A stretch of 64,000 nucleotides of DNA from Trichococcus shcherbakoviae (GTDB lineage Bacteria > Bacillota > Bacilli > Lactobacillales > Aerococcaceae), in NCBI RefSeq assembly GCF_963666195.1, contig NZ_OY762653.1, positions 496,001-560,000 on the forward strand, read 5' to 3'. Below are positions 1 through 5,727 of this stretch, piece by piece (positions within the stretch are counted from its first letter, which is position 1; each line of letters opens with the position of its first letter). A program made the position numbers and the translations under genes. Below the pieces are notes generated by a model, which was given only the letters and a program-made list of their open reading frames with translations, was not told where the DNA came from and did no database searches.

Positions 1-5
1 TCAAA

Positions 6-13
6 CTCCTTTT
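6..13 (-). promoter_or_regulatory. Ribosome-binding site of a gene starting just off the left edge
   Basis: The minus strand reads AAAAGGAG followed by TTTGA and then the window ends, which is the layout of a strong ribosome-binding site five or more bases before a start codon. The gene lies outside the window, immediately downstream of the SCIFF peptide gene. By family knowledge the expected neighbour is the SCIFF radical SAM maturase, but none of its coding sequence is visible. Confidence 0.5.
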
Positions 14-28
14 TTGTCCATAAAATTG

Positions 29-65
29 CCGCCCGACTGGAATCAGTCGGACGGACTCTTTTTTA
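29..65. terminator. Stem-loop after the SCIFF peptide gene
   Basis: A ten-base stem with one mismatch (29-38 with 45-54) closes a six-base loop. On the plus strand a T-rich run follows, so it would terminate rightward reading from outside the window. On the minus strand it sits between the SCIFF peptide stop and the next ribosome-binding site with only a weak T tract, so it may act as a leaky terminator or RNA stabiliser that sets the ratio of peptide to downstream gene. That last role is inference. Confidence 0.5.
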
Positions 66-218
66 TTTCGCTGCTTGTTTAGGGTTCACACAGCTTTGGT
101 TGGCGATTCCGCAAGAAGTTTTGCATGCGGATTGGCAAGATGTTTGGCATGCTCCGCAGCCGCCATGTTTGGCAGTATCCTTCAGGTTGCGGGTGCTTAA
201 TGTTACGATTCTTTTCAT
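63..218 (-). CDS. SCIFF-type six-cysteine peptide (ranthipeptide precursor)
   Basis: A 51-residue peptide that begins MKRIVTLSTRNLK and carries six cysteines in its second half (C21, C24, C28, C32, C36, C43) in the order GGCGACQTSCQSACKTSC then NQSCVNP. This matches the SCIFF family (six cysteines in forty-five residues), ribosomally made peptides in which a radical SAM enzyme makes thioether bridges from the cysteines. An AGAGGAG ribosome-binding site sits eight bases before the ATG and a 17-bp-spaced promoter lies upstream. A further ribosome-binding site follows at the window edge, where the maturase gene is expected. SCIFF is known mainly from Clostridia, so its presence in a Lactobacillales-like genome is notable. 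The biological role of mature SCIFF is not known to me. Confidence 0.88.
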   Translation of the reverse strand: MKRIVTLSTRNLKDTAKHGGCGACQTSCQSACKTSCGIANQSCVNPKQAAK

Positions 219-287
219 AACGACATCTCCTCTGAAATAGGTTAAGGAAGCATATTGCTTGACAGAAAAATGCTCCCTTTGTGATTA

Positions 288-316
288 ATTTTACCAACAA
301 ATTGTTAGCCCGTCAA
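288..316 (-). promoter_or_regulatory. Promoter of the SCIFF peptide gene
   Basis: The minus strand has TTGACG (316-311), a 17-base spacer and TAAAAT (293-288), which is a near-consensus sigma-A promoter. Transcription would begin near 281, giving a leader of about 60 bases. Confidence 0.7.
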
Positions 317-388: not shown

Positions 389-1861
389 TTAGTGAGCAAG
401 GGTTTCCTGTCGCATAATTTGGATATTTTTCGGAAGCTCATCAGCATCGCTGTAGACCTTTGTCCCCTTTTCCAATAGCGTATGGATTTGGCGGATAAAT
501 CCATTACTGATCCGTTCCCCAGGCACAAGCAAAGGAATTCCGGGCGGGTAGGCCCAGACGTATTCGGCTACCGTTTGCCCTATCGCGTTTTCAATCGGGC
601 AATCTATTTTTTCTGATTCCAAGGCCTGCCAGATTTCACATTGCTTTTCGGGTGATGCGAAAAATAATGTCCCGTCGCTCTGCAAGTGCTCCCCATTCAA
701 CGAGTCGAGCGTGCCGTCGACGGCCAACAGCGCATCCGCCAACGTAGCCATTGCTGCATCTGTATCGCAGACACTGGTCATCGCCAACGCATGATCGCCG
801 TATGCCATCTCCATTTCGATATGGTATTCGCTCCGCAACATTTCGGAAAGTTTCTGTCCGGTCAATCCAGTTCCTTGCGCCGAAATCAGGATTTTGCCTT
901 TGTCGAAGGCGAAAAAGGTTTTGTGAGCGCCAAGTCTGTCTTTGCCGTGGCAAAGCACCTTCAGATGCTGGAGCTGCTCCATTTTTTCCGAGAAGTCCGT
1001 TAATCTCTTATTGTAGTTTTCGAATAACTGCTCCCCTTCGTCCCGCAGCAATCGGAAACAGCTGTCGATTGAAGCCATCAGCACATAGGACGGCGAACTG
1101 CTTTCGAAGATGGCGAGTTGCCGGGCCATCTCTTCTGGTCTGACCAAGTCGCCGTTCAGATGGGCAAAGGAGGTCATCGTCAAAGAAGGCAAAGTCTTAT
1201 GCAGGCTCTGGATCACGATATCTGCGCCGAGTGCAGTCGCGCTGGTTGGGAAATGTTCCGAGTAGTTGAAATGTGAGCCGTGTGCCTCATCGATCATCAA
1301 CGGAATCCCTTGCGCATGACAGATATCGGCAATCGCCGCGATGTCACTGACCACCCCTTCGTACGTCGGTGAAGTCAAAACGACCAGCTGCGTGTCCGGA
1401 TGCTTTTTTAGCGTATCGGCGATGCTTGCTGTCGAAATGCCTCCGTGGATGCCGAATGTTTCATCCACTTCCGGCATCAGATAAACAACCTCCAATCCGA
1501 AAAGCTCGATGGCATGATAGACGGATTTGTGGCAATTGCGACCGATCGCAATCTTGCTGCCGCGTTTGGTAGCAGCGCGGATTCCCGCCAGCATGCCGCA
1601 GGTGCTGCCGTTCACGAGGTAGAATGAGCGTTTTGTGCCGTAGAAGTCTGCGATTTCTTCCATATATTCATTGATGATGCCGCTCGCGCCGTGCAGATTG
1701 TCGAAGCCGTCTATCTCTGTGATGTCGATGTTGTAAGGCAGATCTTTACCGAGCAGTGCAGTGTTCCGCTTATGCCCCGGCATGTGCATGGGGATGCTGT
1801 CGGACGCCGCATGTGCTTTCAGTCTGTCCAGCAAAGAAGGTTTCGTTGTATGTTTGTCCAT
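389..1861 (-). CDS. Orn/Lys/Arg decarboxylase family protein (PLP-dependent)
   Basis: A 490-residue fold-type I PLP decarboxylase of the short Gram-positive type, like Bacillus SpeA/YaaO. Visible signatures are MPGHKRN (about residue 27), the DEAHG motif (191-195) and the PLP lysine in SLHKT (K222). The reaction is decarboxylation of arginine, lysine or ornithine to the matching polyamine or diamine; the substrate cannot be read from sequence. I chose the ATG at 1861 because AAGGA lies eight bases upstream; a reading-frame extension to 1948 has no ribosome-binding site. An extended -10 element lies at 1899-1907. It is transcribed alone, with its own upstream terminator separating it from the SMP-30 gene. 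Confidence 0.88.
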   Translation of the reverse strand: MDKHTTKPSLLDRLKAHAASDSIPMHMPGHKRNTALLGKDLPYNIDITEIDGFDNLHGASGIINEYMEEIADFYGTKRSFYLVNGSTCGMLAGIRAATKRGSKIAIGRNCHKSVYHAIELFGLEVVYLMPEVDETFGIHGGISTASIADTLKKHPDTQLVVLTSPTYEGVVSDIAAIADICHAQGIPLMIDEAHGSHFNYSEHFPTSATALGADIVIQSLHKTLPSLTMTSFAHLNGDLVRPEEMARQLAIFESSSPSYVLMASIDSCFRLLRDEGEQLFENYNKRLTDFSEKMEQLQHLKVLCHGKDRLGAHKTFFAFDKGKILISAQGTGLTGQKLSEMLRSEYHIEMEMAYGDHALAMTSVCDTDAAMATLADALLAVDGTLDSLNGEHLQSDGTLFFASPEKQCEIWQALESEKIDCPIENAIGQTVAEYVWAYPPGIPLLVPGERISNGFIRQIHTLLEKGTKVYSDADELPKNIQIMRQETLAH

Positions 1862-4939: not shown

Positions 4940-5140
4940 TTAAGCTTTGTTTACGTTTGTTGCTTGAGGTCCACGGTTACCTTCTTCGACGCTGAAAGTT
5001 ACTGCTTGTCCTTCTTCTAAAGATTTGAAACCTTCAGATTGGATAGCTGAGAAATGTACGAATACATCGTCTCCGTTTTCGCGTTCGATGAAGCCAAAAC
5101 CTTTGTCTGCGTTAAACCATTTTACTGTACCTTGTTCCAT
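4940..5140 (-). CDS. csp: Cold-shock protein, copy 1
   Basis: A 66-residue CspA-family OB-fold RNA/DNA-binding protein, starting [20 protein letters not shown] and holding both RNA-binding motifs (KGFGFI and DVFVHF). These proteins melt RNA structure in the cold and in rapid growth. The start at 5140 is set by AGGAGG ten bases upstream. A promoter at 5254-5282 implies a structured leader of about 107 bases, the usual site of cold-dependent control. It differs from copy 2 at only two residues (D12 for E, N64 for T), and leader segments and terminator are also shared, so a recent tandem duplication is likely. Confidence 0.95.
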
Positions 5141-5253
5141 AATTGAAAATCCTCCTCGTGCTATTGCACATATATCATACATTGTTGCTAACGCTACGGA
5201 TCGGAATTTTCGTAATGCAATTCTTTTCTCTAACCCAACAAAATGTTAAATTC

Positions 5254-5415: not shown

Positions 5416-5616
5416 TTAAGCTTTAGTAACGTTTGTTGCTTGAGGTCCACGGTTACCTTCTTCGACGCTGAAAGTTACTGCTTGTCCTTCTTCTAAAGAT
5501 TTGAAACCTTCAGATTGGATAGCTGAGAAATGTACGAATACATCGTCTCCGTTTTCGCGTTCGATAAAACCAAAACCTTTTTCTGCGTTAAACCATTTAA
5601 CTGTACCTTGTTCCAT
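5416..5616 (-). CDS. csp: Cold-shock protein, copy 2
   Basis: A 66-residue CspA-family protein almost identical to copy 1 (E12 and T64 here). The start follows the same AGGAGG plus ten-base spacing. It has its own promoter and terminator, so the twins are separate transcription units and could respond differently through their leaders, which have diverged between the shared start and the ribosome-binding site. Confidence 0.95.
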
Positions 5617-5727
5617 AATTGAAAATCCTCCTCGTGCGTTTTGCACTTTATGATACATTGTTGCTAACGTTACGAATCGGAATGTTTTGAAACAATTCTT
5701 TTCTGCGCTTCACAAAATGTTAAATTC

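Follow-up and report, generated by a model that had tools for sequence, protein, structure and literature searches.

Few radical SAM peptides are as common in Clostridia as SCIFF, yet both the bond and the role of these peptides are disputed. What is such a peptide doing in Trichococcus, a genus of the Lactobacillales (family Carnobacteriaceae), and which bond could it carry there? The window, meaning the whole stretch of DNA that was analysed, is 64,000 nucleotides long and corresponds to G000:C1:496001-560000 of a one-contig genome of 2.93 Mb. The SCIFF class and its possible horizontal transfer are already known; the precursor-maturase pair at the left edge of the window is a further member of the class, with a function that we infer from sequence. 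Quite probably, the locus is a true SCIFF (ranthipeptide) system that has its origin in Clostridia, is inherited vertically within Trichococcus and comprises a decarboxylase-like gene, the precursor gene and a radical SAM/SPASM maturase gene on one strand. A literature search with most subscription journals outside its reach found no publication linking Trichococcus to SCIFF or ranthipeptides, nor one linking a SCIFF peptide to a decarboxylase; these facts may be published.

The precursor gene occupies window positions 63..218 on the minus strand, starts with ATG and runs for 51 codons plus a stop; its translation is MKRIVTLSTRNLKDTAKHGGCGACQTSCQSACKTSCGIANQSCVNPKQAAK. A ribosome-binding site, GAGGAG, precedes it at 227..232 (minus strand). 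An earlier note on this DNA had claimed a 51-codon SCIFF gene with six cysteines, and the reading frame bears this out: the cysteines stand at residues 21, 24, 28, 32, 36 and 43 of 51. The comparison with SCIFF models that the note had proposed places the peptide above the cut-offs of both NCBIfam TIGR03973 (76.3 bits, cut-off 50, E=1.3e-21) and Pfam PF13165 (78.1 bits, cut-off 27, E=4.6e-22), with E-values so low that this is no chance open reading frame. The peptide thus combines (i) scores above the model cut-offs, (ii) the six cysteines in the C-terminal part that are expected of SCIFF precursors of ∼45 residues and (iii) an adjacent cognate radical SAM maturase.

The maturase gene, 467 codons long, starts 7 bases to the left of window base 1 (G000:C1:494590-495993, equal to L002:8590-9993, minus strand), just where the note had suggested looking for it. 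Its upstream region (1..11, minus strand) includes the ribosome-binding site AAGGAG (11..6), 12 bases before the maturase ATG, so the further gene whose ribosome-binding site had been noticed at the window edge is the maturase itself. TIGR03974 matches the protein with 736 bits (cut-off 425) over G000:C1:494635-495990 (minus strand), directly downstream of the SCIFF gene, and the exception model NF040492 (‘not_ScfB’) scores 543 bits, below its cut-off of 855. The closest solved structure is 5WGG/5WHY (E=1.4e-161), aligned over residues 1-454; 5WGG is CteB (PMC6231123). The radical SAM motif CX3CX2C corresponds to C109/C113/C116, which are cysteines in all 188 aligned maturase rows, and nine further cysteines (C102, C341, C349, C367, C405, C408, C414, C418 and C437) are invariant in the same 188.

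Among known systems, thermocellin (CteA/CteB of Clostridium thermocellum) resembles the window pair in precursor length, six-cysteine spacing and numbering, the fourth cysteine being Cys32 in both. The Trichococcus locus differs in having Gly37, which precludes a Cys32-Thr37 bond, in its Lactobacillales host and in the decarboxylase-like gene before the pair. Tte1186a/Tte1186 of Caldanaerobacter subterraneus is reported as the same precursor and maturase class (PMC8326336, PMC8172795). Freyrasin (PapA/PapB of Paenibacillus polymyxa) is also a ranthipeptide from a related radical SAM/SPASM enzyme and is called SCIFF in some reviews, but its bonds are described as Cys-Asp beta-thioethers (PMC8326336, PMC8172795) and the PapB model gives the window maturase 277 bits, under the cut-off of 340.

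The host is indeed of the Lactobacillales and Carnobacteriaceae, as the note had gathered from the neighbourhood. The survey of Trichococcus and its relatives that it had called for finds the SCIFF model in 11 of 76 family genomes: 11 of 13 from Trichococcus, the two misses being 51% and 63% complete, and none of 63 Carnobacteriaceae genomes outside the genus. All 11 Trichococcus genomes of >90% completeness carry it. Of 398 Bacillota genomes sampled, 307 carry the maturase; in a sample of 295 genomes of the Lactobacillales it occurs in 4, all four Trichococcus. The statement that SCIFF and its maturase are characteristic of Clostridia holds with one qualification: besides Clostridia and Trichococcus, SCIFF is also found in Neobacillus, Bacillus, Paenibacillus, Brevibacillus and Sporolactobacillus. 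Contamination of the assembly was considered and set aside, since the genome is a single contig and 11 of the 13 Trichococcus genomes have the pair. One locus, L049, comes from a record named Sedimentibacter sp. SX930, and so Clostridia by name; its sequence is that of a Trichococcus locus (99% identity, neighbouring genes unchanged), and the record looks mislabelled.

Identity to the maturase at the window edge is 96-99% for named Trichococcus species (and the record titled Sedimentibacter sp. SX930) and 82% for T. palustris. Outside the genus, among the best 80 of 449 relatives, the closest maturases (75-83%) belong to Neobacillus, Bacillus, Paenibacillus, Brevibacillus and Sporolactobacillus, which share Gly37 and, in many cases, a similar hairpin; they differ in that none of 39 loci has a decarboxylase beside SCIFF and in that Sporolactobacillus has His21 (11/11). 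Loci of Oscillospiraceae/Ruminococcus (e.g. L097, L118), with maturases ∼69% identical among the same best 80 of 449, share the Gly37 core and the decarboxylase-SCIFF-maturase order on one strand; they belong to the class Clostridia and their intergenic hairpin is unrelated in sequence.

In the maturase tree (64 of 185 distinct rows), 39 Bacilli form a single clade (100/100) that includes Trichococcus, Neobacillus, Bacillus, Paenibacillus, Brevibacillus, Sporolactobacillus and others. This clade is nested in a Gly37 clade (100/100), the remainder of which is non-Bacilli, this being the meaning of ‘clostridial’ in the counts of loci and tree rows, with part of the genomes assigned to phylum only. 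The nearest neighbour of the Bacilli clade is one genome (90/86), and the Trichococcus maturases are a single group inside the Bacilli clade (95/88). The simplest reading of this topology would be a transfer from a clostridial lineage to Bacilli, followed by spread, and the Trichococcus precursor-maturase pair was apparently acquired sideways from Clostridia. Movement of SCIFF clusters between taxa had been suggested earlier from GC content, according to PMC7778980, which cites another paper for it.

Two narrower ideas about transfer were dropped. The flanks of L049, where dS is low, had hinted at exchange of cassette alleles within the genus, but sliding identity shows a near-identical patch over the aminotransferase and dapD genes with ordinary divergence elsewhere. 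A plasmid vehicle was rejected, the one plasmid record being a 51% match in a 2.6-Mb record. Twelve records of phage collections contain SCIFF-maturase-like sequence, 11 at <60% identity and one at 61.8%, and possibly these matches are bacterial DNA. At least 10 of the 12 are unannotated ‘Bacteriophage sp.’ faecal contigs (e.g. MT836452.1, MT837768.1).

Upstream of the precursor, at 389..1861 on the minus strand, lies a gene for an Orn/Lys/Arg-decarboxylase-like PLP enzyme (PF01276, 186.6 bits). Its start is placed at the ATG at 1861, since all stops in relatives precede that residue; the alternative GTG further upstream would give 1948. Internal stops reported in relatives had raised the idea of a broken decarboxylase, which was discarded when five copies were checked and the stops found only 5′ of the ATG. 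The gene adjoins SCIFF in 11 SCIFF-bearing Trichococcus genomes, and in T. palustris it stays beside SCIFF when the other tested neighbours are absent. Where a locus extends 900 bases or more upstream, the decarboxylase gene stands directly before SCIFF in 8/8 Trichococcus, 26/37 non-Bacilli Gly37 loci (the other 11 lacking it at that place) and the single Ser37 locus, and in none of 20 Thr37 loci or 39 other Bacilli.

On this pattern the decarboxylase, SCIFF and maturase genes are likely to form a three-gene cassette. Alternatively, other Bacilli may have supplied Trichococcus with maturase and SCIFF, the decarboxylase arriving on its own, in which case the three genes would not be one cassette. 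The position of the Trichococcus maturases among Bacilli (30 rows, 100/98) would fit such a history, as would the 39 other Bacilli loci with enough flank and no decarboxylase beside SCIFF. Separate acquisition must nonetheless contend with the decarboxylase tree, in which the SCIFF-linked genes of Trichococcus (10 rows, 99) sit within a group of SCIFF-linked clostridial genes (44 rows, 91) of the same place and orientation, and with T. palustris, where the gene was kept with SCIFF; loss of the decarboxylase in other Bacilli would account for both patterns. It therefore seems on the unlikely side, though deserving real weight. A second Trichococcus/Carnobacteriaceae decarboxylase paralogue lies in the other half of this tree. 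The tree was built quickly from 86 of 96 sequences, after removal of identical rows and of three sequences for which stops had been reported; its branches are long and its composition is skewed. Between Trichococcus species the decarboxylase has a dN/dS of 0.12-0.22; no other gene of the block diverges as much, and its constraint is weaker than that of its neighbours. Given the quick tree and this weaker constraint, its functional tie to SCIFF is that of a candidate, within a cassette that we still prefer.

Which bond could the Trichococcus precursor carry? For Tte1186a and CteA, in vitro work reports a Cys32-Thr37 bond, the single bond mapped in Tte1186a, whereas co-expression of CteA with CteB gave Cys32-Thr34; the conflict is unsettled (PMC8326336, PMC8172795). 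In the numbering of CteA, the window peptide has Cys32, Thr34 and Gly37. Because of Gly37 it cannot form the Cys32-Thr37 bond, which needs Thr at 37; both residues of a Cys32-Thr34 bond are present. The Gly37 precursor is hence a natural test case, one of the two reported cross-link sites being naturally absent.

The wider sample consists of 226 loci, of which 198 were counted: 25 had no SCIFF in the stretch (23 of them with ∼700 bases or less upstream) and 3 were copies of the window locus. Besides the best 80 of 449 relatives, loci were drawn from a phylum sample (30 plus 100 further of those listed, best scores first), so that low-scoring lineages are not represented. The 198 are redundant, with 22 from Trichococcus, and none was dropped for missing the anchor motif. 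Gly37 is present in the window peptide and all 22 Trichococcus loci. Of the 198 peptides, 100 have Gly at residue 37, 97 have Thr and 1 has Ser; over 44 distinct C21-C43 cores it is Thr in 31, Gly in 12 and Ser in 1. A tree of 95 of the 185 distinct rows explains the Gly/Thr split by two changes, and hence by one old event instead of many independent ones. Thr34 is found in 198/198 loci and Cys32 in 197/198. Some SCIFF peptides lack one core cysteine: L023 has Ser32 (together with Ser37), and L207, L215 and L217 have Leu36. Since L023 has Ser32, a Cys32 bond is not universal. All 11 Sporolactobacillus SCIFFs (L070, L071, L078, L080, L081, L082, L084 and L088-L091) carry His in place of Cys21; position 21 is reported to ligate auxiliary cluster I in the CteB crystal (PMC6231123).

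This distribution favours Thr34 as a general bond acceptor. Thr34 sits, though, in the near-invariant block CQSACKTSC, and because the surrounding residues are equally conserved its invariance is no proof of an acceptor role; the conservation may reflect recognition by the enzyme or a receptor instead of cross-linking. The pair might then be genuine with its bond elsewhere, Thr34 being kept for recognition and the Gly37 lineage joining other Cys, Ser or Thr residues, or no Thr. The near-invariance of the entire block, beyond Thr34, speaks for such a reading; T26, S27, S30, S35 and S42 offer further hydroxy residues in the window peptide, and participation of other donor cysteines is left open in PMC8326336. 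Thr26, however, varies (T/A/N/V/D/S, approximate for a few loci) where Thr34 does not, and the homologous pair, when co-expressed, is reported to have used Thr34 (PMC8326336, PMC8172795). A bond elsewhere is accordingly doubtful, and Cys32-Thr34 is the assignment retained below.

A sigma-70-like promoter, TTGACG-17-TAAAAT with TG before the -10, lies upstream of SCIFF at 288..316 (minus strand). The note had claimed a strong promoter of the gene's own: the site is there, at 316..288, fitting the right edge given for it, and ‘strong’ draws on its recurrence, the consensus scan being at chance level (1 found against a mean of 1.1 in shuffles). Identical hexamers with 17-nt spacing recur in the other Trichococcus loci compared (one with TAGAAT), and several loci of Neobacillus, Brevibacillus and Anaerobacillus have the promoter as well.

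At 29..54 (minus strand), a terminator-like hairpin of 11 bp, followed by AATTTTA, separates the stop codon of the SCIFF gene from the ribosome-binding site of the maturase. The stretch folds with -22.6 kcal/mol (z -3.54; none of 200 shuffles equal), and an Rfam search at the hairpin gave no match up to gathering score. Of 178 distinct intergenic stretches between SCIFF and maturase genes, 108 have a hairpin of at least 6 contiguous pairs with a T-run, where shuffles predict 18.6 and the opposite strand has 37: 8/8 in Trichococcus, 26/40 in other Bacilli and, among non-Bacilli, 60/95 Thr37, 14/34 Gly37 and 0/1 Ser37 loci. In 21 Bacilli sequences, 93.4% of cells are compatible with stem pairing (at most 46.5% when slid), with seven double-changed cells against 2.2 in shuffles (0/500 as high), so that covariation backs the pairing. 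Leaky terminators between precursor and enzyme genes are known in other peptide operons, and the hairpin is probably one, giving more precursor than enzyme.

Over the -10, at 279..296 (minus strand), there is tentatively a degenerate operator that agrees at 11/14 positions with TTGTGAANNNNTTCACAA, which we take to be a Rex/FNR-like consensus. Sites of at least 11/14 occur in 9/40 other Bacilli loci (1.93 expected from shuffles), in 11/12 near-identical Trichococcus loci (0.45 expected) and in 1/136 non-Bacilli loci (3.4 expected). Their distance from the start codon is steady, ∼60-67 bases in some of the Bacilli and 75 in Trichococcus, and the palindrome is clearer in the Bacilli loci L054-L056, L058, L061, L067 and L113. 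A Rex-type domain is encoded in the Trichococcus genome, which has 20 sites with at most two mismatches to the operator (control 8), a set for which the window site is too degenerate. For that degeneracy, a firm claim of a Rex/FNR-like operator was given up.

By analogy with homologues, the system would work as follows. The hairpin would terminate transcription in part and leave the precursor in excess; precursor residues 1-20 would bind the N-terminal recognition domain of the maturase, and Cys21 would be the ligand at the open site of that enzyme's auxiliary cluster I. The 5′-deoxyadenosyl radical would then let the Cys32 thiol join a side-chain carbon of Thr34, yielding a Cys-gamma-Thr thioether; ranthipeptides are defined by such a link from Cys to a non-alpha carbon. 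We infer that the product is a regulatory peptide, probably an intracellular or released signal under anaerobic conditions, acting otherwise than through Spo0A. In C. beijerinckii, gene disruption is reported to lower sporulation-gene expression and raise agr (PMC8102284). No Spo0A domain was detected in the present genome (the B. subtilis positive control was), nor was AgrB, for which the positive control was poor, so the C. beijerinckii targets are not simply transferable to Trichococcus. A phenotype of SCIFF removal in Trichococcus could not run via Spo0A, and with Gly37 in a host without detected Spo0A the questions of bond and role are both testable in one organism.

A bolder proposal, which we rate as rather improbable, is that Gly37 SCIFFs would make up a distinct ranthipeptide subclass with Trichococcus as its Lactobacillales branch. 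Cys32-Thr34 would be their sole conserved bond, and a dedicated PLP decarboxylase their original companion; expression would be set by a leaky terminator, joined in Bacilli by a redox-responsive operator, and the product would be an anaerobic signal independent of sporulation.

Might the locus instead be a decaying relic of a transferred cluster, functionless in Trichococcus? Other genera of the family do manage without SCIFF (0/63), and constraint on the decarboxylase is weaker than on its neighbours. The maturase, however, is under strong purifying selection: its dN/dS between Trichococcus species is 0.008-0.040 (seven comparisons), roughly at or below the values for the neighbouring DapD (0.022-0.148) and aminotransferase (0.029-0.074) genes. 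The SCIFF gene shows 3-7 synonymous and 0-2 nonsynonymous codon differences from seven relatives, every genus genome of >90% completeness has kept it, and the five decarboxylase copies checked are free of stops after the ATG. A relic is thus very improbable; from the genus-wide presence and the low maturase dN/dS, the SCIFF system is an old, functional trait of Trichococcus. A metal-binding peptide with no relation to the adjacent enzyme, an idea prompted by six cysteines within 51 residues, is scarcely credible for a product that passes the SCIFF equivalog cut-off, adjoins a SCIFF maturase and recurs across the 198 loci, each of which was collected for a maturase or a SCIFF match.

Elsewhere in the window, two near-identical genes for cold-shock-like proteins of 80 codons each stand in tandem at 4940..5182 and 5416..5658 (minus strand).
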